Positions 352 to 64,000 of a stretch of DNA of 64,000 nt are shown piece by piece. Position 1 is the stretch's first letter, and the number at the start of each line of letters is the position of its first letter. The DNA lies in assembly GCF_014333585.1 (NCBI RefSeq), contig NZ_JACSCW010000002.1:806001-870000 (forward strand), given 5' to 3'. The stretch comes from Hymenobacter sp. BT188 (GTDB taxonomy: Bacteria; Bacteroidota; Bacteroidia; Cytophagales; Hymenobacteraceae). The translations under genes and the position numbers were made by a program. The notes beneath the pieces are model-generated. The model made no database searches, was not told the DNA's origin, and saw only the letters and a list, made by a program, of their open reading frames with translations.

Positions 352-3300
352 ATGCAAGAGTCGCCCAAGTACTGGAAAGGAATCGAAGAGCTAGAAAACT
401 CACCAGAGTTTGCAAAGAATGCTTTCAGCGAATTCGCCGATTTCCTGCCGGTTAGCGAAAAAAATAGCTCTACTGACGCCACTGTTTCTCCACGGCGTGA
501 TTTTTTGAAGCTAATGGGATTCAGCTTAGCCGCAGCCACTTTGGCTAGCTGTGAAGCACCCATTCATAAGGCAATTCCATACCTGAATAAACCCGAGGAG
601 GTCGATCCAGGCATTGCTAACTTCTATGCTTCGACTTATTTCAACGGTGCAGATTACAACAGCGTATTAGTAAAGACCCGGGACGGTCGTCCAATTAAGC
701 TGGAGGGAAACCCAGAGTCACCAATTACGCGTGGCGGTTTGTCAGCCCGTGCTCAAGCCTCCGTTTTGAGCTTGTATGATAGCGCTCGTCTGCAGCATTT
801 TGCCATCAAAGGTCAACAGGCCGATAAGGACCGCGTTGACCAAGAGATTCGCAGCAAGCTTGCAGCTACGGGGGGCAAAATTGCTATCGTATCCCCAACT
901 ATTATTAGCCCGTCGACTAAAAGAGCTATTGCTGAGTTCGCCTCACGCTATCCTACTACCGAACACGTGATGTACGATGCTCAATCGCAATCGGCATTGA
1001 TACAGGCTAATGGAGGTGTACTGCCTTCTTTCGACTTTAGCAAAGCTAATGTGATTGTGAGCATAGGAGCTGACTTCCTGGGTACTTGGATATCGCCAGT
1101 TGAGCATGCTCATCAGTATATCACTAATCGAAAAGTATCAAGCGAAAAAAGGACAATGTCGCGTCATTTTCAGTTTGAGCCCAATCTTTCTTTAACTGGC
1201 TCTAATGCTGATGTGCGCGTACCACTCAAGCCGTCAGAAATGGGGCAGGCTACGCTGGCACTCTATAATGAGGTGGTAGGTGGCGGTTCTGCATCAACAT
1301 ATAATAATGCACAACTGAAAAAGGCCGCATCTGAGCTGAAAGCTAATAGAGGACGTAGCTTAGTTGTAGCTGGCTCAAACGATGTAGCTATCCAGACGCT
1401 TGTAGCTGCTATCAACCAGTCGCTAGGCAACGTAGGCGCAGCTATAGATACTGCAAATCCTTCTTTGCTACGCCAGGGAGATGATGCACGCATGATCCGC
1501 TTGGTAAATGAGATGAATGCAGGCAGCGTTGGCGCTGTAATATTCTATCATGCCAATCCCATTTATGATCACCCACTAGCTGCTAAGGTAAAAACGGGGA
1601 TTGCTAAAGTGCCCCTGAGTATTTCTCTCAACGACCGCTTGGATGAGACAGGTAGCCTCTGTTATTACGCTGCTCCTGACCATCACTACCTAGAGTCGTG
1701 GAACGACTATGAGCCCAAGCGTGGCTCATTGAGCTTAGCTCAACCTACGATTTCGCCCTTATTTGCTACTCGTCAGGCTCAAGATAGTTTGCTAACTTGG
1801 GCGGGGAATTCCCAGAGCTACTATAATTTCTTGCGTGCCAACTGGAGAAGCATTCTAGGGGGCAATTTCCAGCAAGGTTGGGATAAGGCTGTCCATGATG
1901 GAGTTGCTGCTGGTACTCTCTCTCCTGCATCTGTTGCCCCGGTTGCTGCTTCAATTGATATTAACCAAGCAATCAGTTCTATATCCCGCGCACCAAAAGG
2001 TGCCGGCGTTGAATTCTCGCTTTATGAGAAGGTAGGTATCGGCAATGGTTTTGAAGCCAATAACCCTTGGTTACAAGAGTTACCTGACCCAATATCGAAA
2101 GCTACTTGGGGTAATTACGTAGCCGTACCACGGGATATGGCCGTAGCAAATGAGTGGGAGCAAGGTGATGTAGTTAAGATTACCGCGAACGGTATATCTA
2201 TTGAACTTCCTGTTCTTATTCAGCCGGGTCAAGCAAAAGGAGCAGTTAGTATTGCTGTCGGCTATGGCCGGGAGTTAGCTGGAAAAGTAGGTAGCAAAGT
2301 GGGAGCCAACGCTTATCCATTAGCCACCGTACGCGGCAATTCATTACAATATAATGGTACTGTCACGCTTGAGAAGACCGGCGCAAAGTCCCCTATAGCT
2401 CAAACGCAAACGCATCATACGGTCATGGACCGTAAGCCAGTAGTACAGGAAGCTACCTTGGCTGAGTATATAAAGAACCCTAAAGAAGTAACTGAATACG
2501 ACAAAATAGCCACTCCTGATGGTTTAGAGAAGCCAAATAAGGTTTCTCTATGGCAGGACTACGAATACAAGAACCATCACTGGGGTATGGTCATCGATCT
2601 GAACTCCTGTATCGGTTGCGGTGCATGCGTGATTGGTTGCCAAGTAGAAAACAACATAGCAGTAGTAGGTAAGCAGGAAGTAATCAATCGTCGTGAGATG
2701 CATTGGTTGCGTATTGACCGCTACTATAGCTCAGATACCACCAAAGAGGATTTCGCTGAAAAAGGTAAGCTAGATACTTATGCAGCAATGGAAGATCCAT
2801 CGGAAAACCCGAGTGTGATCTTCGAGCCAATGCTGTGTCAGCACTGCAACCATGCCCCCTGCGAGACGGTTTGCCCAGTGCTTGCTACAACGCACAGCAG
2901 CGAAGGCTTAAACCAGATGACTTACAACCGTTGTGTAGGTACTCGCTATTGCGCTAACAACTGTCCTTACAAAGTGCGGCGCTTTAACTGGTTCTCTTAT
3001 TACACAAACGAAAAGTTTGAGGCAGTGAACGGTCATATGTTCACGGATCTCGGTCGCATGGTTCTGAACCCCGATGTAACTGTACGGGCACGTGGTGTAA
3101 TGGAGAAGTGCAGCTTCTGTGTACAGCGTATTCAACTTGCGAAGCTTGAAGCTAAAAAAGAGCGTCGTCGTCCGGTGGATGGTGAAGTAGTAACTGCTTG
3201 CGCGCAATCTTGCCCTACTCAAGCCATCATTTTTGGTGACTTACGTGATCCAAACTCACGTGTATCACAAGTTACTCGTCGTGAAGATGGCGAGCGTGGC

Positions 3301-3464: not shown

Positions 3465-4931
3465 ATGCAGCACGTATCGCCAGTAAGAGAGCCGCTCGTT
3501 ACGGGGGGCAAAACTTACCACGACATCACACAGGACGTGTGCCGCCAAGTGGAAGCTAAGCCAAACATCCGGTGGATGGCAGCTCTGAGCGTGGCGCTCT
3601 TTTTTCTGGGTATATTCTTCTATTCTGTATACCGCACCTTATGGTACGGTATCGGAGAATGGGGGCTGAATAAAACAGTTGGCTGGGCTTGGGACATCAC
3701 CAATTTTGTATGGTGGGTAGGTATCGGCCACGCTGGTACTCTGATTTCAGCTGTATTGTTGCTATTCCGTCAGAAGTGGCGCAGCTCAATTAACCGCGCA
3801 GCTGAGGCAATGACCATATTCGCTGTAATATGTGCGGCGATGTTCCCAGTACTACACATGGGCCGTCCCTGGTTAGCCTATTGGGTATTCCCGTTCCAGA
3901 ATACATTTGGTTCGTTATGGGTAAACTTTAACTCTCCACTTCTGTGGGACGTTTTTGCCATCTCCACATACTTCTCCGTTTCACTGGTTTTCTGGTATAT
4001 CGGTCTCATCCCCGATTTCGCTACTATTCGTGATCGAGCCAAAGGCCCTATAGCTAAGCGCGCTTATGCATTGTTAAGCTTTGGATGGAAAGGATCTGCA
4101 AAGGCTTGGTCACGTTATGAGACTGTATCTTTAATCTTAGCTGGTGTTGCTACGCCTTTGGTGCTCTCAGTACACACTATTGTATCAATGGACTTTGCTA
4201 CCTCTGTGGTACCAGGATGGCACACTACTATCTTCCCTCCTTACTTCGTTGCAGGGGCCATTTTCTCAGGCTTTGCGATGGTTTTAACATTGATGCTTAT
4301 CACGCGGGTAGTCTTCAAACTCGAAGATTATATTACTATAGAACACATCGCTCTCATGAATAAAATCATGATGATTACGGGCTCTATTGTAGGTGTCGCA
4401 TACATCACTGAATTCTTTATTGCTTGGTATTCACAGGTTGAATTTGAGCAGTATGCATTCATCAACCGAGCCACAGGGCCATACTGGTGGGCATATGCAT
4501 CTATGATGACTTGCAACGTAATTACACCTCAGTTGGTGTGGTTCCGTCGCATCCGCTATAGCATTCCCGCTACGTTCATTCTTTCCATTATCGTGAACAT
4601 CGGTATGTGGTTCGAACGCTTCGTAATTATTGTGACGTCCTTGCACCGGGATTATTTGCCTTCAAGCTGGGTGATGTTCTCACCAACTTGGGTCGATATT
4701 GGAATTTATGTAGGTACGCTGGGCTTATTCTTTACTCTGTTCTTACTCTTTGCGAAGTTCTTTCCAGTAGTGAATATGGCTGAGGTTAAGACCATCCTTA
4801 AGTATGGGGTGGATAATGGCCCAACATATACTGGTCATCATGGCCATGGCCACCAAGTAACTCCAGCTCATCAACCCGTTGCTCCTGCTATCCCAGCTTC
4901 TGCTCCCGTAAATTATAATAAGCATGACTAA
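3465..4931 (+). CDS. actC: Alternative complex III quinol-oxidizing membrane subunit ActC (NrfD/PsrC family)
   Basis: A 488-residue polytopic protein with about ten hydrophobic helices. Family members (NrfD/PsrC) bind the quinone at the membrane surface and pass electrons to the iron-sulfur subunit ActB. Visible features include IGHAGTLISAVLLLFRQ in an early helix, PVLHMGRPW, and a His-rich C-terminal tail (HHGHGH) followed by Pro/Ala repeats. It lies 71 bp after actB and its last 8 bases overlap actD, which suggests translational coupling. GGGGGGC occurs at 3503 within the codons for Gly-Gly-Lys. Confidence 0.95.
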   Translation: MQHVSPVREPLVTGGKTYHDITQDVCRQVEAKPNIRWMAALSVALFFLGIFFYSVYRTLWYGIGEWGLNKTVGWAWDITNFVWWVGIGHAGTLISAVLLLFRQKWRSSINRAAEAMTIFAVICAAMFPVLHMGRPWLAYWVFPFQNTFGSLWVNFNSPLLWDVFAISTYFSVSLVFWYIGLIPDFATIRDRAKGPIAKRAYALLSFGWKGSAKAWSRYETVSLILAGVATPLVLSVHTIVSMDFATSVVPGWHTTIFPPYFVAGAIFSGFAMVLTLMLITRVVFKLEDYITIEHIALMNKIMMITGSIVGVAYITEFFIAWYSQVEFEQYAFINRATGPYWWAYASMMTCNVITPQLVWFRRIRYSIPATFILSIIVNIGMWFERFVIIVTSLHRDYLPSSWVMFSPTWVDIGIYVGTLGLFFTLFLLFAKFFPVVNMAEVKTILKYGVDNGPTYTGHHGHGHQVTPAHQPVAPAIPASAPVNYNKHD

Positions 4932-6180: not shown

Positions 6181-7497
6181 ATGGCAACTCTGACGCACCA
6201 AGACAGTGTTACGGCTGAACATTTACAGCTTCCGCCCAGCACTCGTAAGAAATTTATTATAATAATTGCGGCAGGTATTATCCTGTTGATAATTGGAGCT
6301 GTACTAGCTGCTCTCGGAATAGGAGAGGAGCATAGTGCTGTTGCAGGACATGAAGCCGGGACAGGAGCAGGAGCTTCTGCAGAACACCATGAAGGCAGTC
6401 CTACTTGGGTCAAGCGAATTCTTGTAAGCCTTTGGCATAGCAATGTGTACTTCATTGGTATTGCTGTAATCGGCACATTCTTCGTTGCACTACAGTATGT
6501 GGCTTACGCTGGTTGGTCAGTATTAATTAAGCGTATTTCAGAGGCATTGAGTGCTTGGCTACTACCGGGCGCGATCATTATGCTTATCGTGTTCTTCGTT
6601 GGTCGCCATGATCTTTTTCACTGGACGCATGATGGCATTATGACTCCTGGTCACGAAAATTATGACGCTATAGTTGCTGGCAAAAGTGGTTTTTTGAACT
6701 TGCCATTCTATGTTATTCGAATGGTCATATACCTGGGTATCTGGTGGTTCTTTTCAGAAAGGCTAAGAAAACTTTCGATTGAGGAAGACCTTAATGGCGG
6801 AACTGAGTATTTTCATAAAAGCATAAATGTTGGTGCTCTATTTCTAGTTCTATTTGCTGTTTCATCTTCTATGGCGGCGTGGGATTGGGTCATGTCAATT
6901 GACGTACATTGGTTCAGTACAATGTTTGGGTGGTATGTATTCGCAAGTTGGTGGGTATCAGGCCTAGCAGCTGTAACACTCACAGCCATTTATCTAAAGC
7001 AAGCCGGTTACCTACACTTCCTGAATGCTAACCATCTGCATGATCTAGGTAAATTCATGTTTGGCTTTAGTATCTTCTGGACATACATCTGGTTCTCGCA
7101 ATTTATGTTGATCTGGTATGCCAACTTGCCAGAAGAAGCAGTTTATTTCAATCAGCGCTTGGGGGGCTTTAATGGCCACTATACTTGGATCTTCTATTTC
7201 AATTTGATTATCAACTTTGCTTTCCCATTTCTGGTGATGATGACCCGGGATGCAAAGCGTCAAATGATCATGCTGAAAATTGTATGTATTGCCATCTTGA
7301 TAGGTCATTGGTTTGATTTCTACTTGATGATCATGCCCGCCACTATGAAAGGTGAAAGTGGATTTGTAATTGAAATAGGCATTGCACTGATCTTTTTGGG
7401 CTCTTTTCTGTTGTTATTTACGAAACGTTTAAGTCAGGCCTCATTGGTGCCTGTGAATCACCCTTTCCTCGATGAAAGTGTGCATCATACAACCTAA
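6181..7497 (+). CDS. actF: Alternative complex III second quinone-type membrane subunit ActF
   Basis: A 438-residue polytopic protein, related to ActC but shorter in the loops, with about ten hydrophobic segments from residue ~30 on. Recognizable stretches include FFVGRHDLFHWTHD and SMAAWDWVMSIDVHWFSTMFGWY, which are typical of ActF. The frame is open from 6142, overlapping actE, but ATG 6181 directly after the actE stop gives the usual N-terminus (MATLTHQDSV). It ends the act gene set; a 96-bp spacer with a small hairpin separates it from coxB. Confidence 0.93.
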   Translation: MATLTHQDSVTAEHLQLPPSTRKKFIIIIAAGIILLIIGAVLAALGIGEEHSAVAGHEAGTGAGASAEHHEGSPTWVKRILVSLWHSNVYFIGIAVIGTFFVALQYVAYAGWSVLIKRISEALSAWLLPGAIIMLIVFFVGRHDLFHWTHDGIMTPGHENYDAIVAGKSGFLNLPFYVIRMVIYLGIWWFFSERLRKLSIEEDLNGGTEYFHKSINVGALFLVLFAVSSSMAAWDWVMSIDVHWFSTMFGWYVFASWWVSGLAAVTLTAIYLKQAGYLHFLNANHLHDLGKFMFGFSIFWTYIWFSQFMLIWYANLPEEAVYFNQRLGGFNGHYTWIFYFNLIINFAFPFLVMMTRDAKRQMIMLKIVCIAILIGHWFDFYLMIMPATMKGESGFVIEIGIALIFLGSFLLLFTKRLSQASLVPVNHPFLDESVHHTT

Positions 7498-10545: not shown

Positions 10546-10566
10546 TTGCCCCCCAATCAAATAAAA

Positions 10567-10712: not shown

Positions 10713-11789
10713 ATGATTCCTGCCTTCGTGCGCCGCTTTCGCTTTATTGGTATCCTGACAGTTGCTGCTGTTTACTTACTAATTCTAGTAGGTGGAGTGG
10801 TGAGAAGTACTGGTTCAGGAATGGGTTGCCCTGACTGGCCTAAGTGCTTTGGTACTTGGATACCACCAACTCATATAAGTCAACTCCCTTCTGATTACAA
10901 AGAAATTTATACAGCCCAACGAGTAGCCAAAAACAAACGGCTGGCTGCTACGCTGGAGCGTTTTGGATTTGCCCAAGTAGCCGGCGACATCTTCGCGCAC
11001 CCAACGCAGTACATTGAAACAGACTTCAATGTCACCAAAACTTGGATCGAGTATCTGAACAGGTTATTAGGAGCTTTAATTGGAGTCTTTGTTTTCCTAA
11101 CAGTGGTTTTTGCATTGCCCTATTGGCGACTCGACAAAACCGTCTTTTGGCTTGCCTTCGGAAGTTTTGTTCTGGTAGGGGTGCAAGGATGGTTGGGTTC
11201 ATTAGTCGTCTCCACGAACTTACTGCCTATTATGGTGACTATCCATATGGGATTAGCACTTGTTATCGTAGCTATGCTATTATATGCTGTCGATCGTTCT
11301 CAGCAATCCGCTGAGCGTACAGAAACAATACAGTTCTCTCCTGCCTTAGCAGTTGGGCTATGGGTAGTTGTTTTGCTCACGTTCGGCCAAATTGTACTAG
11401 GTACACAGGTACGTGAAGAAGTAGACCTAGTGGCATCATCAATGAATTATAGCAATCGTTCAGAATGGGTTGAGCAACTGGGGGGCATTTTTAAGGTACA
11501 TAGGACTTTCTCTTTGGTGTTATTGATTCTTAACATCTATGTCGCTTATCAATTGTACCAGCTACCATCCAAGCGGCTACACAAGTTAACTAGCGCAATG
11601 CTTGGCTTCTTGGGTTTGGAGATTCTAGCTGGTATTATCCTCGCTTATTTTGCGGTACCTGCCGCTGTGCAGCCTGTGCACCTTACGGTAGCTACTTTAT
11701 TATTTGGGGGGCAATTCTTGTTGTTGGTAGCTTATCATAGAAGGGCGAAATCAGTAGTAAAGCCCACTTATCCGCATGTTGTTGCGTAA
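10713..11789 (+). CDS. ctaA: Heme A synthase (COX15/CtaA family)
   Basis: A 358-residue protein with about eight helices that oxidizes heme O to heme A for the oxidase. The family signature GGVVRSTGSGMGCPDWPKCFG lies in the first helix and loop. Later histidines in HMGLALV, KVHRTF and VQPVHLTVATLLFG are the expected heme ligands. The frame is open from a GTG at 10617, but that adds 32 unlikely residues; ATG 10713 gives a normal start directly before the first helix. It sits between coxA and ctaB, as is common in this phylum. Confidence 0.93.
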   Translation: MIPAFVRRFRFIGILTVAAVYLLILVGGVVRSTGSGMGCPDWPKCFGTWIPPTHISQLPSDYKEIYTAQRVAKNKRLAATLERFGFAQVAGDIFAHPTQYIETDFNVTKTWIEYLNRLLGALIGVFVFLTVVFALPYWRLDKTVFWLAFGSFVLVGVQGWLGSLVVSTNLLPIMVTIHMGLALVIVAMLLYAVDRSQQSAERTETIQFSPALAVGLWVVVLLTFGQIVLGTQVREEVDLVASSMNYSNRSEWVEQLGGIFKVHRTFSLVLLILNIYVAYQLYQLPSKRLHKLTSAMLGFLGLEILAGIILAYFAVPAAVQPVHLTVATLLFGGQFLLLVAYHRRAKSVVKPTYPHVVA

Positions 11790-11841: not shown

Positions 11842-12693
11842 ATGACGAAACTCAAAGCTTATTTTCAGCTACTCAAATTCCGGCTTTCAATCACTGTTGC
11901 CTTCTCAAGTGCTATCGGTTACCTTCTTGGGGTACACGAACTAGACTGGAGTCGGGCCTTGCTGGTAATGCTCGGTGGGTTAGCCGTAACAGGTTCGGCC
12001 AATACAATTAACCAGATCCATGAGCGGGATTTAGACAAGCTCATGAAGCGCACTGCTAAACGGCCTTTACCAACGGGAGTGCTCAGCATTCCAGAGGCTT
12101 GGGTATTCGCAGTAGTCTTAGGATTGGCAGGTTTAGGCCTATTGGCTTATTATTTTAACCCTTTGACTGCGGCCCTTTCTCTCCTGTCGCTCATTCTATA
12201 CGGTTTCATTTATACGCCCCTAAAAACCATTTCACCAATCTGCGTTTTTGTGGGGGCCATTCCTGGTGGTATGCCACCACTTATAGGTTGGGTAGCCGCC
12301 ACAGGGGTGTTAGGAGTAGAGGCCTGGGTGCTATTTGGGATCCAGTTTATGTGGCAGTTTCCGCACTTTTGGGCCATAGCTTGGGTTCTAGATGAGGACT
12401 ACAAGCGTGCGGGATTTAAGATGCTGCCTACTCCGGGGGGCAAAGATTTGCGCACCGCTTTCCAGATAATGACCTACACGCTTCTGCTGATTCCACTGAG
12501 CCTATTGCCACTTCAGTTTGGGATGGCCGGCAAGGTATCAGCCATGATCGCGGTTGTGTGTGGAGTATTATTTCTCATGCAGACTTTTTACCTGATGCGC
12601 ACCTGCTCCAAAAAAGCGGCGATGAACATCATGTTTGGGTCTTTTCTGTACCTGCCAATCGTTCAGATTGCGCTGGTATTCGACAAAATATAA
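11842..12693 (+). CDS. ctaB: Protoheme IX farnesyltransferase (heme O synthase)
   Basis: A 283-residue UbiA-family prenyltransferase with about nine helices. It adds a farnesyl group to heme b to make heme O, the substrate of CtaA. The two Asp-rich regions are seen as NTINQIHERDLDKLMKRTAKRPLPTG, with the motif around residues 60-80, and WVLDEDYKRAGFKMLP. The frame continues upstream to 11776 inside ctaA, but MTKLKAYFQLLKFRL at 11842 is the usual N-terminus and has a -7 promoter element upstream. Subunit III-type genes follow 12 bp later. Confidence 0.94.
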   Translation: MTKLKAYFQLLKFRLSITVAFSSAIGYLLGVHELDWSRALLVMLGGLAVTGSANTINQIHERDLDKLMKRTAKRPLPTGVLSIPEAWVFAVVLGLAGLGLLAYYFNPLTAALSLLSLILYGFIYTPLKTISPICVFVGAIPGGMPPLIGWVAATGVLGVEAWVLFGIQFMWQFPHFWAIAWVLDEDYKRAGFKMLPTPGGKDLRTAFQIMTYTLLLIPLSLLPLQFGMAGKVSAMIAVVCGVLFLMQTFYLMRTCSKKAAMNIMFGSFLYLPIVQIALVFDKI

Positions 12694-16128: not shown

Positions 16129-19100
16129 TTGCCTTTGAAGCTAGTCCGTTCCTCTCCGTTGGTCTTGCTGTTAGCTGCCACGCTTTGCTTCGTAGCGGCT
16201 TATCTGAGCAATCGATATGGCCAAGTGCCGGAGGTGTTATTGCGTGCCGAAACGACGCGTCTGCAAAACCTGGTAATTGAAGCTCAGCGCACCGCCGAAC
16301 GCGAAGCCGACGAAGTGGCTGAGCGCTTGCAGGGCCAAGCACTCAATTTCAACTCCCTTATTGGTTTAACGACTTACCCTTGCTTCGTATTTGAGGGCGA
16401 GAAGCTATTGTATTGGTCGGACCATACTATCCGGCCGGAGGTAGCTAACGCAGGCCAAGACTTCCGCGAGAAGCTGGTAGATATGCGTTTTGGGCAATAC
16501 CTGGTGTTGCGCCGCTCCGTTGGGCGGCACGTTATTCTGACGTATGTGCCCCTGGAAAAGCGGTATGGCATCAGCAACCGCTATCTGCGCGAGGGAGCTG
16601 AGCAAGCTCTGTTCCGGGGGGCAAATGTGCGTTTAGTAGTCAATAATAACCCCCGATTACCACGCCTGTTTTCTGAAGAAGGTGATTATCTCTTCTCGAT
16701 AGAAAGCTCTGCTCCCGACCCTGTTACGGGTAAATACCTGCCCGTGGCGTTCCTGCTATTGGGTTTCGGGTTGTATCTGGCGGGTTGCCTTCGTTTGGCC
16801 ATCGGGTTGTTCTCTACCGGTCGGGTATTTGCCGGCGTCGGTTCCGTCGTACTGTCGCTCATGGCGATGCGAGCGGCTCTGCTATTTTTAGGGCTTCCCT
16901 TCTCACTGGTGGAAGTGCCCTTGTTCGATCCGCGCTTGTATGCGGCTTCGTGGCTTTCCCCCTCACTGGGCGACTTGTTGATCAATGCCTTCCTGTTTGT
17001 GGCCCTGGCGTATTATGCCCTGTTATTGTTTCGGCGCTTTGGAATAGTGCGCCGGGTGCGGCAAATCCGTCGTTTTTACTTGCTTTTTATCATAGGTACT
17101 GCGGCAGTACTGAGCTTCTATGGCTTATTACAACTGCTGTTTAGTTTCTATTCCAATAGCTTCAATAACTCTCAGTTAGTTCTCGATGTGACCCAAAGTA
17201 TCGATGTATCGGTATTCAAGGGGTTGTTGTGTCTGGCTATCATTCTGCATACCGGCAGCTATCTGGTTGGGTTTTACATGCTGTCGCAGTTGTTCATAGC
17301 AGCAGTTCGGCCAGCTACACGCAGTGCAGGCATTATCTTGTTAGGGCTCGCTACGCTTACAATACTGCCTTTGGGGCTTGCCTTTGGCCTGACCAACGGA
17401 ATACTGTTTGGGCTCACCCTGCTCTTCTTCTTCATCGTACGGCTGACGGGTCTGCGCCAAGTAGCGTCGGTGGTGCCTTATCAGGTCTACCTGTTTATCT
17501 TCCTGATGCTGGGGGTGAGCTCGGTAGTAGGCGCTTTGGCTTTGTATGAGCATTTTGATCGTCAGCTGGTTATTAATAAACAGCGTATTGCTAGCAATCT
17601 TCTGGTCGATAATGACTTGCAGGGCGAGTACCTGTTAGCGGAGCGCTCCCGCCAGATGGCCGCCGACCCATTGATCCAGACCATGCTGGCGCGACCATTT
17701 GCCAACCAGGATGTGGTGCGTCAGAAGATCATTAAGTATTATCTCCGTGACTATTTCGATAAGTATGAAATTGTAGTCACGCTCTTCGACCCAGCGGGGC
17801 GCTCGTTGGATGGGAACGAGGAAACGCTGAATCTGCCTCAGTTGCGGCGGCGCCTTCTGCGCACGGCCTTGTCCACGGACCATCCCGACCTGTATCTGAT
17901 TCACAACAGCAACTCCTTTAGCTCCCGGCGCTATGTGGCTTTTGTGCCGGTTGTTACTTCTGCGGGCGGTACGAGCACCGTTCTGCTGGAGCTTTCGCTG
18001 AAAAAACTGACAGCCTATAGCGTAGTACCTGAACTGTTGGTCGATCAGAAGTTTTTCCAGCCTGGCCTGGGCTCTGATTTAAGTTATGCCGGCTACGAAA
18101 ACGGACGGCTAATTTATAAGGAAGGCGACTTTGATTACGTAAATCAGCTTACCTCAGCTCAACGGCAGGATCCGCGCCTGTTTAGCGTGGGGTTGTCTGT
18201 TGATGGCTTCCATCATCTGGCTGTTCGTGGTGCACAGCGTCGCATGGTAGTCGTAACGACGGCCACTTATGCCTTCAACGACTGGCTAGCTAATTTCTCC
18301 TTCCTCTTCTTGCTGCATACTTTCTTTAGCTTGTTGGTAATAGGAGGCTACATGCTGGCGCGCGGGCAATACTTTCAGGTTTTTCGTACCACGTTCAGCA
18401 CCAAGATTCAGCTGTTTCTCAACTTCGGTATTCTCGTTCCGCTCCTCATTGTGAGTATCGCCACGGCTAGCCAGGTTACGTCGTCGTACCAGCGAGATTT
18501 GCGGCGTACGTATGAGCGCAGGGGCAAAACGGTACAGGAAAACCTGCTGAAAAATCGGGCGCTGCTGGCCGATTCCTCCGGCCGGGCCGCTCTGATTGAT
18601 TTGGCGGAAAACGTGTCGGATCTGACCGAAACGGATCTTAACCTGTACGGCGCCGATGGCACCCTGCAAGTGAGCAGTCAGCCCTTGATTTTTGAGTCAG
18701 GGCTGTTGAGCACCTTAATGCACCCGCGTGCGGTAGCCGAATTGGCAGAGAAAGGGCAACCACAAGTGCTACTCACTGAAACGGCCGGTTCATTGTCCTT
18801 CAATACGCTGTATCTGCCACTGCGGGCAGTGGTGCGGCCCGGCCGCCCCGACGTGGTCGTTGGCTACGTCGGTATTCCATTCTTCGATTCCGAGAAAGAG
18901 CTTGATAATAAGCTCATTGAGTTGATTTCTACTATCCTGAACATCTTCACGGTGATGTTCATTATCTTTTTGGTGCTGGCTTTTGTCGCTTCCCGTATTC
19001 TGACGGCCCCGCTCAAAATCATCACGGAAAAGCTTAAGCAAACTACGCTTACGGGGCAAAACGAGATGCTGGCCTACGAATCGTCGGATGAGATTGGGCT

Positions 19101-19860
19101 GCTGGTGCGGGAATACAATGCCATGCTGCTGAAGCTGGAGGAAAGTAAGCAGGAGCTGGCAACTCAGGAAAAGGAAGCCGCGTGGCGCGAAATGGCCCGC
19201 CAAGTGGCCCACGAAATCAAGAACCCGTTGACGCCGATGAAGCTTTCCCTACAGTATTTGCAGAAAGCCATTGCGGAGCGCCGCCCGAATACGGAGGAAC
19301 TGATAGGTAAAATATCCCAAACGCTCATCACCCAAATCGATGTGCTCAGCGACATCGCTACGTCGTTTTCTACCTTCACCAACCTGCCAGCCATGCGCCC
19401 CGAGCGCTTGGATGTAGTGCCTATTTTGCGGCGTTGCGTGAGTTTGCACAAAGGCGGAGTGGGCGAAGGCAGCATTCGATTGAAAGTGCCAGCTGACGCG
19501 AAGAACGGCCGGTATATTGTTTTTGCCGACGAAAACCTGTTGGTGCGTACCTTTAACAACTTGCTGATCAACGCGCTACAATCGGTGCCGGAGGGGCGCA
19601 AGCCGCAGATAAATGCCAGTCTGGAACTCCGTGGTACCGACCGCATCGTGATTTGCATAGCCGACAACGGGGCCGGTATTCCCGAGGAGGTGCAGGCGAA
19701 GGTGTTCGTGCCCAATTTCACCACCAAGACGTCCGGGTCGGGAATTGGCTTAGCTGTTGCCCGGCGAGGAATCGAAAGCGCTGGGGGGCAAATATGGTTT
19801 GAAACGGAGGAAAATGTGGGTACGCGGTTCTGTATTGAGCTGCCATTGGCACCGGAATAA
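16129..19860 (+). CDS. Giant multi-membrane sensor histidine kinase (NtrY-like)
   Basis: A 1243-residue kinase. Residues 5-27 form a first helix, ~30-195 an extracytoplasmic domain, and ~203-480 a block of about eight to nine helices. A second extracytoplasmic region (~485-710), further helices near 715-735 and 755-780, and a third periplasmic loop lead to a last helix (~930-955). A HAMP-like linker follows, then the H-box VAHEIKNPLTP with His ~1028, and the ATPase domain with NNLLINAL, ADNGAGIPEE, FTTKTSGSGIGLAV and a glycine-rich end. A stop lies just before codon 16129, so TTG 16129 or TTG 16135 must start translation. No response regulator is adjacent, so it is an orphan here. Confidence 0.9.
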   Translation: MPLKLVRSSPLVLLLAATLCFVAAYLSNRYGQVPEVLLRAETTRLQNLVIEAQRTAEREADEVAERLQGQALNFNSLIGLTTYPCFVFEGEKLLYWSDHTIRPEVANAGQDFREKLVDMRFGQYLVLRRSVGRHVILTYVPLEKRYGISNRYLREGAEQALFRGANVRLVVNNNPRLPRLFSEEGDYLFSIESSAPDPVTGKYLPVAFLLLGFGLYLAGCLRLAIGLFSTGRVFAGVGSVVLSLMAMRAALLFLGLPFSLVEVPLFDPRLYAASWLSPSLGDLLINAFLFVALAYYALLLFRRFGIVRRVRQIRRFYLLFIIGTAAVLSFYGLLQLLFSFYSNSFNNSQLVLDVTQSIDVSVFKGLLCLAIILHTGSYLVGFYMLSQLFIAAVRPATRSAGIILLGLATLTILPLGLAFGLTNGILFGLTLLFFFIVRLTGLRQVASVVPYQVYLFIFLMLGVSSVVGALALYEHFDRQLVINKQRIASNLLVDNDLQGEYLLAERSRQMAADPLIQTMLARPFANQDVVRQKIIKYYLRDYFDKYEIVVTLFDPAGRSLDGNEETLNLPQLRRRLLRTALSTDHPDLYLIHNSNSFSSRRYVAFVPVVTSAGGTSTVLLELSLKKLTAYSVVPELLVDQKFFQPGLGSDLSYAGYENGRLIYKEGDFDYVNQLTSAQRQDPRLFSVGLSVDGFHHLAVRGAQRRMVVVTTATYAFNDWLANFSFLFLLHTFFSLLVIGGYMLARGQYFQVFRTTFSTKIQLFLNFGILVPLLIVSIATASQVTSSYQRDLRRTYERRGKTVQENLLKNRALLADSSGRAALIDLAENVSDLTETDLNLYGADGTLQVSSQPLIFESGLLSTLMHPRAVAELAEKGQPQVLLTETAGSLSFNTLYLPLRAVVRPGRPDVVVGYVGIPFFDSEKELDNKLIELISTILNIFTVMFIIFLVLAFVASRILTAPLKIITEKLKQTTLTGQNEMLAYESSDEIGLLVREYNAMLLKLEESKQELATQEKEAAWREMARQVAHEIKNPLTPMKLSLQYLQKAIAERRPNTEELIGKISQTLITQIDVLSDIATSFSTFTNLPAMRPERLDVVPILRRCVSLHKGGVGEGSIRLKVPADAKNGRYIVFADENLLVRTFNNLLINALQSVPEGRKPQINASLELRGTDRIVICIADNGAGIPEEVQAKVFVPNFTTKTSGSGIGLAVARRGIESAGGQIWFETEENVGTRFCIELPLAPE

Positions 19861-19948: not shown

Positions 19949-19970
19949 GGGGCTGAAAAAAAGCCCCCCG
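19949..19970. repeat. Solo intergenic GGGGGGC motif in a short hairpin
   Basis: GGGGCT and AGCCCC flank a GAAAAAA loop just upstream of the next gene. The right arm contains a minus-strand copy of the dispersed G6C motif at 19963. No T-run follows on the plus strand, so it is a weak terminator at best. Confidence 0.5.
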
Positions 19971-44884: not shown

Positions 44885-44994
44885 GCTTTAAAAAAGCCCC
44901 CCACAGCCCTGGACTAAAGGAAACTTAACCCAGCGGCTGTTGTTAATGCGCTAAGAATCACCTAGCTTTCGCTAACCGGATTCTCCCTGAGCGT

Positions 44995-45593: not shown

Positions 45594-45608
45594 ATACCTT
45601 TGCCCCCC
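45594..45608 (+). promoter_or_regulatory. -7 promoter element for the desaturase gene merged with a G6C motif
   Basis: TACCTTTG (45594-45601) fits TAnnTTTG. Its last bases run into TTTGCCCCCC, a minus-strand copy of the G6C motif at 45602. The gene starts 21 bases further. Confidence 0.55.
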
Positions 45609-46707: not shown

Positions 46708-46745
46708 AAAAAAGCCCCTCAGAAATGTTTCTGGGGGGCTTTTTT
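46708..46745. terminator. Bidirectional terminator built from a G6C motif pair
   Basis: AAAAAAGCCCCTCAGAAA and TTTCTGGGGGGCTTTTTT form an 18-bp stem with one T-G wobble and a TG loop. It ends both the desaturase gene (plus) and the small lipoprotein gene (minus), whose stop codon overlaps its right edge. Confidence 0.9.
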
Positions 46746-49345: not shown

Positions 49346-49352
49346 GCCCCCC
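49346..49352 (-). repeat. Solo intergenic G6C motif upstream of tRNA-Cys
   Basis: AAAAAAGCCCCCCAGG lies immediately before the -33 element of the tRNA promoter. It has no partner arm nearby. Confidence 0.5.
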
Positions 49353-52432: not shown

Positions 52433-52469
52433 AAAAAAGCCCCCCAGAAATAATCTGGGGGGCTTTTTA
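52433..52469. terminator. Bidirectional terminator built from an inverted G6C motif pair
   Basis: AAAAAAGCCCCCCAGA and TCTGGGGGGCTTTTT pair around AATAA. Both arms are full motif copies (52439 minus, 52457 plus). It ends cphA and the minus-strand coiled-coil gene. Confidence 0.92.
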
Positions 52470-52489
52470 TAAGCAAAAAGATCTGCGAC

Positions 52490-53568: not shown

Positions 53569-54168
53569 ATGGATTTACTGCTTGATGAGACCTACTGGCG
53601 AGCCCGTTACGCTACTGGCCAAACAGGTTGGGATGTGGGAGCAATAACGCCTCCGCTACAGGATTATTTTAAGCAACTAGGTCCGCCCGATGCTCGGCGT
53701 ATCCTCATTCCAGGTGCGGGAAGGGCGTACGAAGCCGAATGCCTACACAATCAAGGATTTAGTGAAGTGTTTGTAATTGACCTGGCGCCAGAGGCGCTGG
53801 AAGCGTTGCAGCAGCGTGTGCCCAGCTTTCCTGGGGGGCATTTATTGCAGCATGATTTTTTTACGCTGTCGGCTGAGCCCCCTTACGATTTAATTGTAGA
53901 GCAAACGTTTTTTTGCGCACTGCCCCGCACGCTTCGTCCGGATTATGCCCGTCAGTGTGCGCATTTACTGCGGCCGGGGGGCAAATTGGTAGGCTTGCTC
54001 TTCGAAACGGATTTTGGCCCCTCATCCGAACCTCCCTTCGGCGGCACCCGCGACGAATACCGAGCGTACTTTGAGCCGTATTTTAAGTTCGTCCATTTTG
54101 ATACTGCCTACAACTCTATTCGGCCCCGGCAGGATAGGGAGTTGTTTATTTGTTTAGAGAAAAAGTAA
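53569..54168 (+). CDS. TPMT-family SAM-dependent methyltransferase
   Basis: A 199-residue Rossmann methyltransferase of the thiopurine S-methyltransferase family. The start YWRARYATGQTGWDVG and the SAM-binding RILIPGAGRAYEAECLHNQGF are characteristic, as is VEQTFFCALPRTLRPDYARQ. Bacterial members methylate thiols, selenium or tellurium compounds, or halides; the substrate here is unknown. It is followed 16 bp later by kdsA. Two G6C motifs lie within it. Confidence 0.88.
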   Translation: MDLLLDETYWRARYATGQTGWDVGAITPPLQDYFKQLGPPDARRILIPGAGRAYEAECLHNQGFSEVFVIDLAPEALEALQQRVPSFPGGHLLQHDFFTLSAEPPYDLIVEQTFFCALPRTLRPDYARQCAHLLRPGGKLVGLLFETDFGPSSEPPFGGTRDEYRAYFEPYFKFVHFDTAYNSIRPRQDRELFICLEKK

Positions 54169-56411: not shown

Positions 56412-57077
56412 ATGTCCATAAAGATAGAAGAAAGCTGGCGCAAAGTACTACAAGACGAGTTCGAAAAGCCCTATTTTCAACATCTTACTGCCTTCGTCCG
56501 GGGCGAGTACGCCACGACTACTGTGTATCCGCCCGGGGGGCAAATTTTTCATGCTTTTGAGGCGTGCCCTTTCGATAAAACCAAAGTGGTGATTCTGGGC
56601 CAGGACCCATACCATGGAAAAGGTCAGGCGCATGGTTTAGCGTTTTCCGTGGCAGAAGGAGTGCGCACCCCGCCTTCCTTGCAAAACGTTTTTAAGGAGT
56701 TGCAGGCCGATTTACCTGAAACGCCGCCTGCCCCCAATGGCAACCTCGATCGCTGGGCCGAACAAGGCGTGCTTTTGCTTAACGCTACGCTTACTGTTCG
56801 GGCTGCAGAGCCCGGCTCGCACCAAAAAAAGGGCTGGGAGCAATTCACCGATACGGTTATTCAGCGCGTTTCGGAACAGAAAGAACACGTCGTATTTATC
56901 CTGTGGGGCGCTTATGCACAAAAGAAGGTGGAGCTAATCGACGAGAAAAAACACTTGGTGCTTAAAGCTGCACACCCGTCGCCCTACGCCGCCGACCGTG
57001 GTTTTTTTGGCTCTCGACCTTTCAGCAAAACCAACGAATACCTGCGTCAGCATGGGCTAGAGCCAATTAAGTGGTAA
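56412..57077 (+). CDS. ung: Uracil-DNA glycosylase, family 1
   Basis: A 221-residue enzyme that removes uracil from DNA to start base excision repair. The catalytic loop [21 protein letters not shown] (Asp near 65), the insertion loop [23 protein letters not shown] (~185-207) and the [10 protein letters not shown] segment are intact. Length matches the family. A G6C motif (56535) lies in codons for Pro-Gly-Gly. It is followed by a strong terminator. Confidence 0.97.
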
Positions 57078-57108
57078 AACAACGTTTAATATGTGAGCCA
57101 TATATCGG

Positions 57109-57144
57109 AAAAAGCCCCCCAGAATCATTCTGGGGGGCTTTTTT
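57109..57144. terminator. Bidirectional terminator built from an inverted G6C motif pair
   Basis: AAAAAGCCCCCCAGAA and TTCTGGGGGGCTTTTTT pair around TCA. Both arms are full motif copies (57114 and 57132). It separates ung from the minus-strand lepB. Confidence 0.93.
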
Positions 57145-57164
57145 GATACCAAGTCAAGGTAGAC

Positions 57165-58474: not shown

Positions 58475-59194
58475 CTACAATCCGAGTAGCTCCTTCATCC
58501 CAAATACACCCTTGCGCCCCGGCAGCCATTCGGCAGCTAGCAGTGCTCCCTGAACAAAGCCATCCCGCGTATGTGCTTCGTGCTTCAGCTCAATGGTATC
58601 AGCGGGTGAGGAATATGTAACAATGTGTGTACCAACTACCTGACCTGTGCGCTCCGAAAGTACAGCCAGCTCTTGCGGAGCCGTAGTAGGTTCGTTGCGC
58701 CAGATGGTCTTGGTCGGAAAGTGACGAATGATAGATTCAGCGGTGGTAAGAGCTGTACCGCTGGGCTGATCTACCTTCTGCGTGTGGTGAATTTCGCGAA
58801 CCTGCACATCGTAGCCCCCAAAGTGGTGCATTTTGGCGGCGATATACTCATTGAAATGAAAGAACAAGTTTACGCCCACGCTGTAGTTGGAAGCGTAAAA
58901 AAGCCCCCCACCCATCTCCTTACATAGGTCGCGGGCTTCCTGAAAATGATGGAGCCAACCTGTAGAGCCACAAACCACTGGCAACCCTTGGCGCAGGGCA
59001 GCGCTCACATTAGCGAAGGCAGCATCAGGATGGGTGAACTCAATGGCCGCGTCAACGGTCGTAGCGTCGAAGTCGGAGATGCGTACACCGGGCCGTGAGG
59101 GATCCACGATGCCAACAATCTGGTGGCCTCGGGCAATAGCCTGGGCCTCAATGGCCTGGCCCATCTTGCCGTAGCCAATCAGCAGCAATTTCAT
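58475..59194 (-). CDS. dapB: 4-hydroxy-tetrahydrodipicolinate reductase
   Basis: A 239-residue enzyme of the lysine and meso-diaminopimelate pathway. The N-terminal NAD(P)-binding motif is LLIGYGKMGQAIEAQA. VVCGSTGWLHHF and SNYSVGVNLFFHFNEYIA belong to the active site, and the catalytic region HHTQKVDQPSGTALTTAE is conserved. It begins within the end of the DUF5683 gene (4-bp overlap), so the two are coupled. It supplies the peptidoglycan precursor. Confidence 0.95.
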   Translation of the reverse strand: MKLLLIGYGKMGQAIEAQAIARGHQIVGIVDPSRPGVRISDFDATTVDAAIEFTHPDAAFANVSAALRQGLPVVCGSTGWLHHFQEARDLCKEMGGGLFYASNYSVGVNLFFHFNEYIAAKMHHFGGYDVQVREIHHTQKVDQPSGTALTTAESIIRHFPTKTIWRNEPTTAPQELAVLSERTGQVVGTHIVTYSSPADTIELKHEAHTRDGFVQGALLAAEWLPGRKGVFGMKELLGL

Positions 59195-59854: not shown

Positions 59855-60802
59855 CTAAGACGGTTGAAGAATATGAAGAATACGCTGCATATCCTCCACC
59901 GAGTCAAACGCGATTCTGATCTCGCCATTGCCCTGGGGATTTGGTTTCACCTGCACTCGGCTGCCGAAGCGGTCGGAAAGGTGGCGCTCGGTGCGGCGCA
60001 GTTCGGCTACAGGAACCGGCTGGGGGGCATTTTCGGCAGCCTTCTGACCAGGCGCAGTGGCCGGAGCAGTAGCTGCGCCACCACCACGCACAATCTGTTC
60101 TACACGACGCACCGAAAGGTCTTCGGCTACAATGCGACGATAAAGCATCAGCTGTTGCTCGGCATCCTCAATGTTGATGAGGGCGCGGGCATGGCCCATT
60201 GAAATTTCAGCGTCGCGCAAACCAATCTGGATGTCGGGAGGCAATTTTAGGAGCCGCAGATAGTTGGTTACTGTCGAGCGGTTCTTGCCTACCCGGTCGC
60301 CGAGTTCTTCCTGCTTTAGGCTGCACTCACTCACCAATCGCTGGTAGCTAAGCGCAATTTCTATTGCGTTAAGATTCTCGCGCTGAATATTCTCAATCAG
60401 GGCCATTTCCAGCATTTGCTGGTCGTCGGCCTTGCGGATGTACGCCGGAATCGTATCCAAGCCCGCCAGCTTAGAAGCCTGCAAACGCCGCTCGCCGCTG
60501 ATAAGCTGATAAGAATTGGTACCCAACTGGCGCACGGTTACGGGCTGAATGATGCCCTGGATCCGAATAGACTCGGCCAATTCCTGCAGCGCCTGTTGGT
60601 CAAAGTGAGTGCGAGGCTGGTACGGGTTCGCCTCGATATGATTCACCGAAATGAAGCCTACCGAATTGACCGGATGCGGCACCAGCCGTTCGCCTTTTTT
60701 CTCGTAGCTGCCTTCAATAAGGGCATTTAGCCCGCGACCCAAGCCGCCAATTTTGCGCTTCGGAACTGATGCGGGAGTTTTTTCTTCGTTCTTCTCTGAC
60801 AT
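59855..60802 (-). CDS. parB: Chromosome partitioning protein ParB
   Basis: A 315-residue ParB/Spo0J protein. A basic start (KRKIGGLGRGLNALI) leads into the ParB/Srx CTPase domain with ANPYQPRTHFDQQALQELA and the GERRLQASKLAG motif (~115). The helix-turn-helix DNA-binding domain LGDRVGKNRSTVTNYLRLL (~170-195) follows, and then a linker rich in Ala/Pro and a C-terminal dimer domain. It binds parS sites and loads onto chromosomes. parA lies upstream on the same strand, 171 bases away with a hairpin between. Confidence 0.95.
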   Translation of the reverse strand: MSEKNEEKTPASVPKRKIGGLGRGLNALIEGSYEKKGERLVPHPVNSVGFISVNHIEANPYQPRTHFDQQALQELAESIRIQGIIQPVTVRQLGTNSYQLISGERRLQASKLAGLDTIPAYIRKADDQQMLEMALIENIQRENLNAIEIALSYQRLVSECSLKQEELGDRVGKNRSTVTNYLRLLKLPPDIQIGLRDAEISMGHARALINIEDAEQQLMLYRRIVAEDLSVRRVEQIVRGGGAATAPATAPGQKAAENAPQPVPVAELRRTERHLSDRFGSRVQVKPNPQGNGEIRIAFDSVEDMQRILHILQPS

Positions 60803-61878: not shown

Positions 61879-62559
61879 TTACAACTCCATTGTCGACCCG
61901 ATGGCCATCAACACTAATTCTTTTCCGGCTTGCGTGGCCTGTTCACGGGCCGCGTCATGGTCGATTTTAATAGGCGGGAAAGTGTCGTAATGCATGCCGA
62001 TAAACTGACGAACTCCTACCCAGTTGGCTGCCTCAATTGCATCGTCAACGCCCATGGTGAAGTTATCACCAATGGGCAGAATAGCAAAATCCAATTCATG
62101 CCGCTCATTAATGAGCTTCATGTCGTAGGTGAGGGCAGTATCGCCGGCGAAGTAAAAGTTTTTTTCGGCTGTTTCAATCACAAAGCCGGCCGCCAAGCCC
62201 CCATAGGAGCCATCGGGCATAGAGCTGGAGTGAGCCGCGGGAACAAGTTTTACCGTACCGAAAGGCAGCTGTATTTTGCCCCCCAGGTTCATTTTGTAGT
62301 TCGCTTTCAAGCCCTTCGCTTCAAACCAGCTAAGCACCTCAAACATCCCTACCAACTCGGCACCTGTGCGCTTACCGATTTCCTCGACATCGGCAACGTG
62401 GTCGCCGTGGCCGTGGCTGAGCAGGATAAAATCAGCCCCAATTTTCTCGACGTCAATGTTCTTCGCTAATTCATTAGGACGAATAAAAGGGTCGAAGAGC
62501 ACTTTAGTGCCGCCAATCTCAGCCAAGAAGCAGGAGTGGCCGTAATAGGTCAATTTCAT
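61879..62559 (-). CDS. MBL-fold metal-dependent hydrolase (UPF0173 family)
   Basis: A 226-residue metallo-beta-lactamase-fold protein. The first motif LSHGHGDHVADVEEIG (~50-65) carries the metal-binding HxHxDH. FYFAGDTALTYDMKLI and the late MHYDTFPPIKID (His ligand) complete the set. Substrate is unknown in this family. The frame is open to 62637, but ATG 62559 (MKLTYYGHSCF) is the family start. A -7 element lies upstream. Confidence 0.9.
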   Translation of the reverse strand: MKLTYYGHSCFLAEIGGTKVLFDPFIRPNELAKNIDVEKIGADFILLSHGHGDHVADVEEIGKRTGAELVGMFEVLSWFEAKGLKANYKMNLGGKIQLPFGTVKLVPAAHSSSMPDGSYGGLAAGFVIETAEKNFYFAGDTALTYDMKLINERHELDFAILPIGDNFTMGVDDAIEAANWVGVRQFIGMHYDTFPPIKIDHDAAREQATQAGKELVLMAIGSTMEL

Positions 62560-62626
62560 AAATAAAGCGAAGCGGAAAGGAGCGGTCAGACGCCAATTTA
62601 GCGTTACACTTGCACCGAACTTAGCA

Positions 62627-62634: not shown

Positions 62635-62652
62635 CACTGTTTCGCCTTTCTC

Positions 62653-64000
62653 ATGTTTCCGTTTTTGCGTCGTTTTGCTGGTTTTGCCCTTCCGTTGCTC
62701 ACGGCATTAGCTAGCTGCGGCGGCCCAAGTAGCCCTACCGACGAGCGCCGCGTTTTCCGTTATAACCAGCCAGAAGCCCTCAGTTCACTTGACCCTGCTT
62801 TTGCCCGCAACCAAGCTAATACCTGGGCGGTGACGCAGTTATATAATGGCTTGGTGGAGCTAGACGACCAGTTGAAACCCGGTCCCGCGCTGGCCCGCCA
62901 CTATGATATTTCGTCTGACGGCCGCCGCTACACGTTTACTCTACGGCCTAACGTATTCTTCCACGACAGCGAGGTGTTTCCGGGGGGCAAAGGCCGGCGA
63001 GTAACGGCCCAAGATTTCGTGTACAGCTTTCGGCGGCTGCTCGATCCTGTTACGGCCAGCACTGGCGGCTGGATTTTTAGGGGGAAAGTGCTGGAAAACG
63101 CGGCAGGTGAGCCTTCGGATACGGCCTTTGTTGCGGTGAACGATAGTACTGTGCGTATTTATTTGCAGGAGCCGTTTATTCCTTTTTTGAGCATCCTGAC
63201 GATGCCTTACGCCTACGTGGTGCCCCGCGAGGCGGTGCAGCGCTATGGCAAAGACTTTCGGGAGCACCCGGTGGGTACGGGGCCGTTTCAGTTTAAGGAT
63301 TGGGACGAAGGAAATGCGATTGTTTACCACCGTAATCCGCACTATTGGCGCAAGGATGCGCAGGGCCAGGCGCTGCCGTATCTCGATGCGGTCCAGATTT
63401 CTTTCATTCAGGACCGAAAAACGGAGTTTCTAACCTTTCAGCAGGGTAAACTCGACTTTGTAAGCGGTATTCGGGCCGGCTCTCGTGATTTGATTTTACA
63501 CCCTGATGGCACTGTTCGCGAAGATTTTGAGGGCAAGTTCCGCTTTGAGAAAGTGCCGTATCTGAATACGGAATACCTCGGGATTCAGCAGGATCCTACT
63601 AACCTGCGGGGGGATGCGGCTAACCCGGCGCTGCGCGATAAACGGGTGCGCCAGGCTTTAAGCTACGCGCTTAATAAGCCTGAACTGATTGCTTATTTCC
63701 TGAATAATGTAGGCCGGCCTGGCAACTCGGGGTTTGTGCCCGCTTCATTGCCATCGTTTAGCGAAAAGCTGGTTCCGGGCTACACGTATCAACCCGAAAA
63801 GGCCCGCGAGCTACTGAAGGCTGCTGGCTACGGCGTTGGCAAACCGCTACGCCTGCGCCTTGGTACGGTAGCCGAGACCAAGGAAATAACAGAGTACCTG
63901 CAGAAGAAATGGGCCGAAGTAGGGGTACAGGTAACCATTGATGTGAGCCAAGGGGCGGCTCATCAGGAGAACGTAGATAACGGCCGCGCTGCATTCTTTA
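62653..64000 (+). CDS. Peptide ABC transporter substrate-binding lipoprotein (3' end outside the window)
   Basis: The frame runs from ATG 62653 to the right edge, 449 codons without a stop. The signal FAGFALPLLTALASCGG has a lipobox at Cys22. The body matches family 5 solute-binding proteins (OppA/DppA type): NQPEALSSLDPAFARNQANT, VTQLYNGLVELDDQLKPGPALA, VTAQDFVYSFRRLLDP, VGTGPFQFKDW and VRQALSYALNKPELIAYFL. These proteins capture peptides or similar ligands for an ABC importer. Partner permease genes would lie to the right, outside the window. Confidence 0.93.
   Translation, partial: MFPFLRRFAGFALPLLTALASCGGPSSPTDERRVFRYNQPEALSSLDPAFARNQANTWAVTQLYNGLVELDDQLKPGPALARHYDISSDGRRYTFTLRPNVFFHDSEVFPGGKGRRVTAQDFVYSFRRLLDPVTASTGGWIFRGKVLENAAGEPSDTAFVAVNDSTVRIYLQEPFIPFLSILTMPYAYVVPREAVQRYGKDFREHPVGTGPFQFKDWDEGNAIVYHRNPHYWRKDAQGQALPYLDAVQISFIQDRKTEFLTFQQGKLDFVSGIRAGSRDLILHPDGTVREDFEGKFRFEKVPYLNTEYLGIQQDPTNLRGDAANPALRDKRVRQALSYALNKPELIAYFLNNVGRPGNSGFVPASLPSFSEKLVPGYTYQPEKARELLKAAGYGVGKPLRLRLGTVAETKEITEYLQKKWAEVGVQVTIDVSQGAAHQENVDNGRAAFF

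Follow-up and report, generated by a model that had tools for sequence, protein, structure and literature searches.

To our knowledge, uptake words have been established only in the Neisseriaceae, as the DNA uptake sequence (DUS), and in the Pasteurellaceae, as the uptake signal sequence (USS); both families are pilus-bearing Proteobacteria. DUS are present at a density of about one copy per kb and reportedly come in clade-specific dialects, a feature in which they may be likened to the word described here. This word, with the core GGGGGGC, is iterated through a 64-kb stretch of DNA from Hymenobacter sp. BT188, a member of the Bacteroidota; the whole stretch of 64,000 nucleotides is called the window below. 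The evidence supports a DNA-level signal beyond codon preference, and comparison with the known systems suggests, with chances that we put at about even, that CTGGGGGGC followed by an A/T tract is the putative DNA uptake sequence of one Hymenobacter clade, a self-recognition label that would act in the manner of Neisseria DUS and Haemophilus USS.

Much of what is described for DUS is also seen for the Hymenobacter word. DUS have many copies on both strands and are highly conserved, including at orthologous places, and absent from recently acquired genes (available portions of PMC2397512 and PMC1852404); inverted pairs of both DUS and USS are enriched between tail-to-tail genes, and the same bias toward one configuration of the pair is found in Neisseria and, less strongly, in the Pasteurellaceae (accessible text of PMC1852404). 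The Hymenobacter word differs from DUS in its sequence, in its occurrence in the Bacteroidota, in the lack of a pilus ATPase over the cut-off and in the lack of permissive flanks. With USS it shares a core joined to A/T-rich extensions and the reuse in terminators (PMC1852404, same portion), as well as a favoured orientation in genes (PMC2346458, as far as its accessible part goes), the coding copies in Hymenobacter being 163 sense and 107 antisense; unlike USS, it has a single A/T tract right after the core and no bias toward gene termini, and a pilus route was not found. HIP1 (highly iterated palindrome) and the alternate HIPs of cyanobacteria are likewise GC-rich words iterated genome-wide, with other words in some relatives (PMC4390886, in part), but the Hymenobacter word is non-palindromic, and no C5 cytosine methyltransferase (PF00145) shared by its carriers was found. 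Within the Bacteroidota, Riemerella anatipestifer transforms with the help of ComEC, DprA, ComF, RecA and further proteins that do not resemble the familiar machinery; the accessible part of that report (PMC8459023) describes no uptake word, and the DUF5689 family of this organism is unmatched in the four Hymenobacter carriers. A literature search, with subscription journals and preprints outside its scope, found, among the titles listed, no paper on an uptake word in Hymenobacter or the Bacteroidota.

GGGGGGC is present 47 times in the window, 24 times on the plus strand and 23 times on the minus strand. A preliminary description of this DNA had counted 46 copies (24 and 22); its plus-strand figure was right, and the copy that it missed lies in a run of seven Gs at 29075-29081. 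Its other counts were reproduced exactly: there are 50 runs of six Gs, 46 of which continue with C, and 43 of these 46 then continue with A or T (44 of the 47 GGGGGGC copies when the seven-G run is included); C or T precedes the heptamer in all 46 copies, and the outermost coordinates are 870 and 62988. Copies also lie, as had been stated, between genes and, within genes, in several frames and in either orientation. The heptamer, which had been taken as the unit, is the core of a longer word. The window (bases 806001-870000 of contig 13) and 400 kb of the same contig, 464 kb in all, contain 402 copies, and their consensus reads C-T-GGGGGG-C, then A/T, ending in T. The full word is CTGGGGGGC followed by four to six A/T, a non-palindromic sequence of ~15 bp; one written-out form is CTGGGGGGCTTTTT, and intergenic copies mostly read TCTGGGGGGCTTTTTT. 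By home-made gene calls, which are approximate and make every coding/intergenic split approximate too, 270 of the 402 copies are coding and 132 intergenic. At least four A/T follow 209 of 267 single coding copies, versus 276 of 4181 GGGC controls drawn from the DNA as a whole. (By itself the heptamer discriminates less well: genome G012 has 1100 GGGGGGC and just 12 TGGGGGGCWWW, where W is A or T.)

Codon preference as the origin of the word is ruled out by a null in which synonymous codons were shuffled 100 times within 352 genes. In these genes TGGGGGGCWWW occurs 164 times versus 8.9 ± 2.6 after shuffling (maximum 16), an 18.5-fold excess, and GGGGGGC occurs 282 times versus 77.9, in agreement with the earlier statement that codon preference cannot explain the copies. 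The reversed control WWCGGGGGG shows no excess (9 versus 9.7), and 19 of the 21 one-base neighbours of the word are without enrichment; the only two enriched ones have the first G changed to A (26 versus 8.5) or the sixth G changed to C (32 versus 14.3). Near-copies that the preliminary description had added to the set are thus enriched, at 26 versus 8.5, and its site at 37681 stood, but AATTGCCCCCT is not found at 44078. Exact AATTGCCCCCT lies at 20856 and 37682, with the complement at 1857; near-copies of the form WWGCCCCCT/AGGGGGCWW lie at 1857, 2852, 20858, 37684 and 44077. In the whole genome (5.0 Mb, 20 contigs), for which a count had been proposed as a test of the signal, GGGGGGC is present 4288 times (2163 plus, 2125 minus) versus 497 and 524 for the reversed word, and in the chromosome stretches sampled the density of G6CWW is 0.70-0.84 per kb. 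A mobile short repeat, such as a repetitive extragenic palindrome (REP) or a miniature inverted-repeat transposable element (MITE), does not fit either: the flanks are unrelated beyond the consensus, and outgroup alignments show a gap at just 2 of 18 and 2 of 12 sites.

The word is kept at orthologous places by selection or drive. This comparison, also proposed in the preliminary description, covered one 100-kb region around comEC, with 66, 61 and 44 orthologs of 75 genes. The 9-bp core is identical at 42 of 53 sites in G102, 38 of 48 in G010 and 23 of 32 in G103 (72-79%), well above background 9-mers (0.34, 0.41 and 0.24, respectively). A G4 control word is kept at just 15 of 36 sites in G102 (Fisher p 0.0006), and outgroups share the word at 0 of 16 and 0 of 10 orthologous sites. 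The identity of the flanks is ordinary (0.875, 0.897 and 0.839, versus 0.877, 0.892 and 0.836 at random places); since the core is kept while flank identity is ordinary, it is the word itself that is held.

Counts in relatives, again as had been suggested, place the word in a single clade. TGGGGGGCWWW is high in 4 of 120 Hymenobacter genomes (G000, 2875; G102, 2310; G103, 2280; G010, 2042), and the remaining 116 have at most 33 copies each; in a phylum-wide sample of 395 genomes only the window's genome is high, the next highest having 45. A ComEC tree built from 56 of the genomes groups the four carriers as a single clade (support 100/100), and the genome nearest to them is just 70% identical in ComEC. 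Within carriers the word is chromosomal: in the same two genomes, G6CWW occurs 35 times in 320 kb of plasmids and secondary replicons versus 167 times in 220 kb of chromosome (0.11 versus 0.76 per kb, about seven-fold rarer). Five secondary replicons were sampled, two of which were matched by sequence to named plasmids; in G102 and G010 these stretches show 100.0% identity to plasmids of H. radiodurans and H. qilianensis, the names that the two carriers receive from this match. Five word-free stretches of at least 4.5 kb were found, and contents were taken from three: one holds rpoB, and the other two, of 4.6 and 7.2 kb, adjoin with one copy between them, an island of 11.8 kb with a phage-type integrase. 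Spacing is slightly more even than random (coefficient of variation 0.857 versus 0.945 ± 0.052; 3.75% of 2000 simulations as low). There is no clear strand polarity, 317 of 597 copies lying on the GC-skew leading strand (p 0.14), with GC skew a weak proxy for the replichore (size 0.009-0.017; G103, at 0.004, is left out of the 597). Viral contigs have 98 stretches with the 15-mer, and none of the 80 that were examined belongs to a word-rich virus: 77 have one TG6CWWW and 3 have two. The chromosome stretch G000:C13:280001-300000, compared with phages, gave no match.

The GGGGGGC copies and inverted pairs of the window are the following (strands of genes and open reading frames, ORFs, in brackets).

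870..876, plus strand, copy in gene 322-3393 (+)
3503..3509, plus strand, copy in gene 3465-4931 (+), earlier named actC
7161..7167, plus strand, copy in gene 6142-7497 (+)
10548..10554, minus strand, intergenic copy
11480..11486, plus strand, copy in ORF 10617-11789; intergenic by the home-made caller
11706..11712, plus strand, copy in ORF 10617-11789; intergenic by the home-made caller
12435..12441, plus strand, copy in gene 11776-12693 (+)
16616..16622, plus strand, copy in gene 16129-19860 (+)
19783..19789, plus strand, copy in gene 16129-19860 (+)
19963..19969, minus strand, intergenic copy with T tract
20402..20408, minus strand, copy antisense in gene 19988-23539 (+)
22022..22028, plus strand, copy in gene 19988-23539 (+)
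23872..23878, plus strand, copy antisense in gene 23546-25645 (-)
24149..24155, minus strand, copy in gene 23546-25645 (-)
24479..24485, plus strand, copy antisense in gene 23546-25645 (-)
25753..25759, plus strand, intergenic copy
26978..26984, minus strand, copy followed by G, in gene 25788-27524 (-)
29075..29081, minus strand, copy in the seven-G run, in gene 28895-30259 (-)
29642..29648, minus strand, copy in gene 28895-30259 (-)
31072..31078, minus strand, copy in gene 31069-32022 (-)
31252..31258, minus strand, copy in gene 31069-32022 (-)
32059..32065, plus strand, copy antisense in gene 32051-32863 (-)
33316..33322, minus strand, copy followed by C, in gene 32860-33648 (-)
34997..35003, minus strand, intergenic copy with T tract
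35615..35621, plus strand, copy followed by G, antisense in gene 35066-39634 (-)
35985..35991, minus strand, copy in gene 35066-39634 (-)
37299..37305, minus strand, copy in gene 35066-39634 (-)
38755..38761, plus strand, copy antisense in gene 35066-39634 (-)
39849..39855, minus strand, intergenic copy with T tract
41913..41919, plus strand, copy in gene 41769-42857 (+)
42289..42295, minus strand, copy antisense in gene 41769-42857 (+)
42813..42819, minus strand, copy antisense in gene 41769-42857 (+)
44896..44902, minus strand, intergenic copy with T tract
45602..45608, minus strand, intergenic copy
46733..46739, plus strand, intergenic copy with T tract
49346..49352, minus strand, intergenic copy with T tract
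52439..52445, minus strand, copy, left arm of an inverted pair
52457..52463, plus strand, copy, right arm of an inverted pair
53833..53839, plus strand, copy in gene 53569-54168 (+)
53976..53982, plus strand, copy in gene 53569-54168 (+)
56535..56541, plus strand, copy in gene 56412-57077 (+)
57114..57120, minus strand, copy, left arm of an inverted pair
57132..57138, plus strand, copy, right arm of an inverted pair
58903..58909, minus strand, copy in gene 58475-59194 (-)
60022..60028, plus strand, copy antisense in gene 59855-60802 (-)
62278..62284, minus strand, copy in gene 61879-62637 (-)
62982..62988, plus strand, copy, intergenic by the home-made gene calls
52434..52470, no strand, inverted pair, predicted bidirectional intrinsic terminator between tail-to-tail ORFs 49764-52403 (+) and 52490-53437 (-)
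57106..57146, no strand, inverted pair, predicted bidirectional intrinsic terminator between tail-to-tail ORFs 56412-57077 (+) and 57165-58325 (-)

Folding of the pair at 52434..52470 gives -27.0 and -27.4 kcal/mol on the two strands (z -5.48 and -5.84), and that of the pair at 57106..57146 gives -28.8 and -27.4 kcal/mol (z -5.99 and -5.45). In the 464 kb all 34 inverted pairs are convergent (GCCCCCC...GGGGGGC) and none is divergent; nearly all are flanked by A and T tails, and 17 of the 34 lie between tail-to-tail genes, versus 61 of 350 gene pairs (p 4.5e-5). The pairs are predicted to act as intrinsic terminators at gene ends. Two genes of the window may be noted here. ORF 49764-52403 encodes a cyanophycin synthetase (TIGR02068, 1124 bits, above its cut-off). 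Gene 3465-4931, earlier named actC, has only a below-cut-off DsrP match in NCBIfam, and the closest named relatives of its protein are from Hymenobacter species (91%), with records very near the source genome possibly excluded.

Taken together, a word that is non-palindromic, non-polar and chromosomal, that shows drive-like upkeep, that has a core extended by A/T and that is reused in terminators best fits an uptake sequence. Among the options listed in the preliminary description, the uptake sequence is thus the best fit, and a HIP1-type or cytosine-methylation word and a replichore-oriented segregation signal fit poorly. The uptake sequence would work as follows. Cells would release DNA, and a surface receptor would bind the word on the double-stranded form; the DNA might then pass the outer membrane by a route that involves no type IV pili, after which ComEC would take one strand in for recombination by DprA and RecA. 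Uptake would favour alleles that bear the word, these would replace alleles that had lost it, and such a molecular drive could preserve thousands of copies. Inverted pairs lying close together would have been reused secondarily as terminators.

Several observations weigh against an uptake sequence. The bias toward gene termini that is reported for the Pasteurellaceae is not seen among the copies, nor are the more divergent, permissive flanks reported for DUS seen in the orthologs compared. The second longest word-free stretch is the one that holds rpoB, a core gene (this stretch is simply constrained), and the conservation figures are limited to a single 100-kb region. A motif-driven amino-acid change (14 of 16 and 9 of 10 in one region; 10 of 28 in another, a count in which a few sites recur across nine outgroups) is not claimed. 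ComEC matches are found in all 120 genus genomes, some of them partial or broken, and DprA matches in 12 of 12; since word-free genomes have both as well, neither accounts for the word. In none of 22 genus genomes does the ATPase of type IV pili and type II secretion systems (PF00437) exceed the cut-off; the only matches, weak and sub-threshold, are in G113 and G026, neither of which has the word. The known receptor route of DUS and USS therefore looks to be missing, and for this reason the word is not filed in the pilus-linked family, although it would work like a member. The DUF5689 surface protein of the Riemerella type, considered as a lead to the receptor, was rejected: it has matches in 15 of 30 genomes and in 0 of the 4 carriers. 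Seven strong DUF5689 matches adjoin SusD-like genes and a metallophosphatase-like gene (names read from sequence), so that this looks like a nutrient-uptake locus. Finally, the words of sister clades, two groups of which are palindromic and one strand-biased, may point to a broader process.

An intracellular role should also be weighed. The word could be the binding site of a protein that organises or segregates the chromosome (nucleoid, SMC/Noc/KOPS type; KOPS, FtsK-orienting polar sequences), and its restriction to the chromosome in the samples, its density and its fairly even spacing would suit such a site, as would the strand bias of a sister-clade word whose GGGTAGGG resembles the KOPS consensus. 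However, the GGGGGGC word itself has no clear strand bias, which makes it unlikely to orient a translocase, and its several thousand sites far exceed those of Noc/MatP/parS-type systems, which number tens to hundreds; this explanation is unlikely. A hotspot of recombination that, like Chi, regulates the AddAB or RecBCD nuclease would account for a word that is G-rich, non-palindromic, over-represented, conserved, clade-specific and chromosomal. Chi sites are strongly oriented with replication, though, and the near-equal partition of the copies between skew strands (by the weak proxy above), together with an A/T tract and intergenic pairs that are foreign to Chi, renders a Chi-like function decidedly unlikely. 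It is still harder to see a DNA methyltransferase and a repair system creating and keeping the word in the manner of HIP1. HIP words do reach similar or higher densities and vary by clade with methyltransferases (accessible part of PMC4390886), and palindromic words are found in other Hymenobacter clades. Here, though, the word is non-palindromic with no A in its core; in a search that covered PF00145 and PF01555, the C5 cytosine methyltransferase PF00145 was found in 0 of 4 carriers and PF01555 in 2 of 4, as weaker split matches in G010.

The hairpins raise the possibility that the main function of the word is that of an intrinsic terminator module, all other copies being by-products: there are 34 such pairs in 464 kb, nearly all with A and T tails, and those of the window are strong predicted hairpins. 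Only 68 of the 402 copies are paired, however, and of the 67 intergenic copies that stand singly, 37 are followed by a T tail but lack a C-rich arm upstream. Because coding copies predominate, and these exceed their codon-shuffled null while carrying the same A/T tract, a terminator module is rejected as the sole explanation and seems very improbable as the primary one. That the core is a run of Gs might suggest that the word arises by biased mutation or by slippage in homopolymers, but the run length is sharply six (356 G6C versus 12 G7C in 400 kb), one-base neighbours mostly lack enrichment, and orthologous copies surpass other DNA in conservation, which leaves slippage scarcely plausible.

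The genus contains other iterated words, and it is tentatively proposed, as a possibility short of an even chance, that Hymenobacter has a sequence-specific uptake system of a new kind, with CTGGGGGGC-A/T, GGGGGTAGGG and others as its dialects and a putative surface receptor that would have switched specificity repeatedly. The genus words are either dialects of one system or products of several processes, and their variety is the main reason why confidence in the uptake sequence stays near one half. If the uptake sequence is real, it becomes testable whether self-recognition in DNA uptake is tied to pilins or evolved independently. At least five iterated words in different clades, beside genomes with none in a 20-kb sample, make the genus a natural experiment that bears on the start, spread and replacement of such words. 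Should the uptake reading fail, the preservation of a 15-bp word at thousands of places would still need explaining.

One of the other words, also non-palindromic, is GGGGGTAGGS (S, G or C; loci L119-L123, L151-L162 and L201), with 2091-3200 copies in G034, G115, G099, G014 and G028. A further nine genomes have 229-995 copies, and the four carriers of the GGGGGGC word have just 10-20, which is background. It contains GGGTAGG(G), the part that we take to resemble the KOPS consensus, and the form GGGGGTAGG is strand-biased (85 of 116, a count that omits G026, 1 of 3, though this genome met the skew limit). Between G099 and G115 it is identical at 15 of 22 and 14 of 19 sites versus a background of 0.30-0.31; comparisons with G034 are less clear (4 of 9 versus 0.41; 4 of 7 versus 0.32). 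No inverted pairs were found among 209 copies. In G014, a genome rich in this word, the ComEC match is split into two parts that lie about 36 kb from each other and are both interrupted by a stop (G014:C32:287523-289283 and 325470-326096).

In 20-kb samples, TGGCCTAG is iterated in two genomes, G137 (L167, L190, L191) and G141 (L220), the iterated word there being AGTGGCCTAG, with 29 copies of TGGCCTAG in 60 kb of G137. The palindromes ACCTAGGT and CCCTAGGG, which are HIP1-like, were found in samples of the same size from G066, G133, G072, G021 and G033 (L215, L216, L218, L231, L232), genomes that the ComEC tree places in two distinct regions. A further HIP1-like palindrome, GGGGCCCC, is strongly over-represented in two genomes sampled at 20 kb and, in a separate sample, in G012 (G012, G092 and G114; L188, L189, L226, L227). 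CGGATGCTG in G012 was rejected as a dialect, 12 of 15 CGGATGCT copies being a 12-bp tandem repeat in one gene; this repeat, CGGATGCTGCGG, lies at about 8111-8250 of L163. A possible further word, TTGGGCTGA, occurs seven times in 20 kb of G106 (L165), scattered and on both strands. In Pontibacter (L022-L024, 21-kb samples), GCTATAGTT, GCTATACTT and TTTATACTT are over-represented and are possibly promoter-like.

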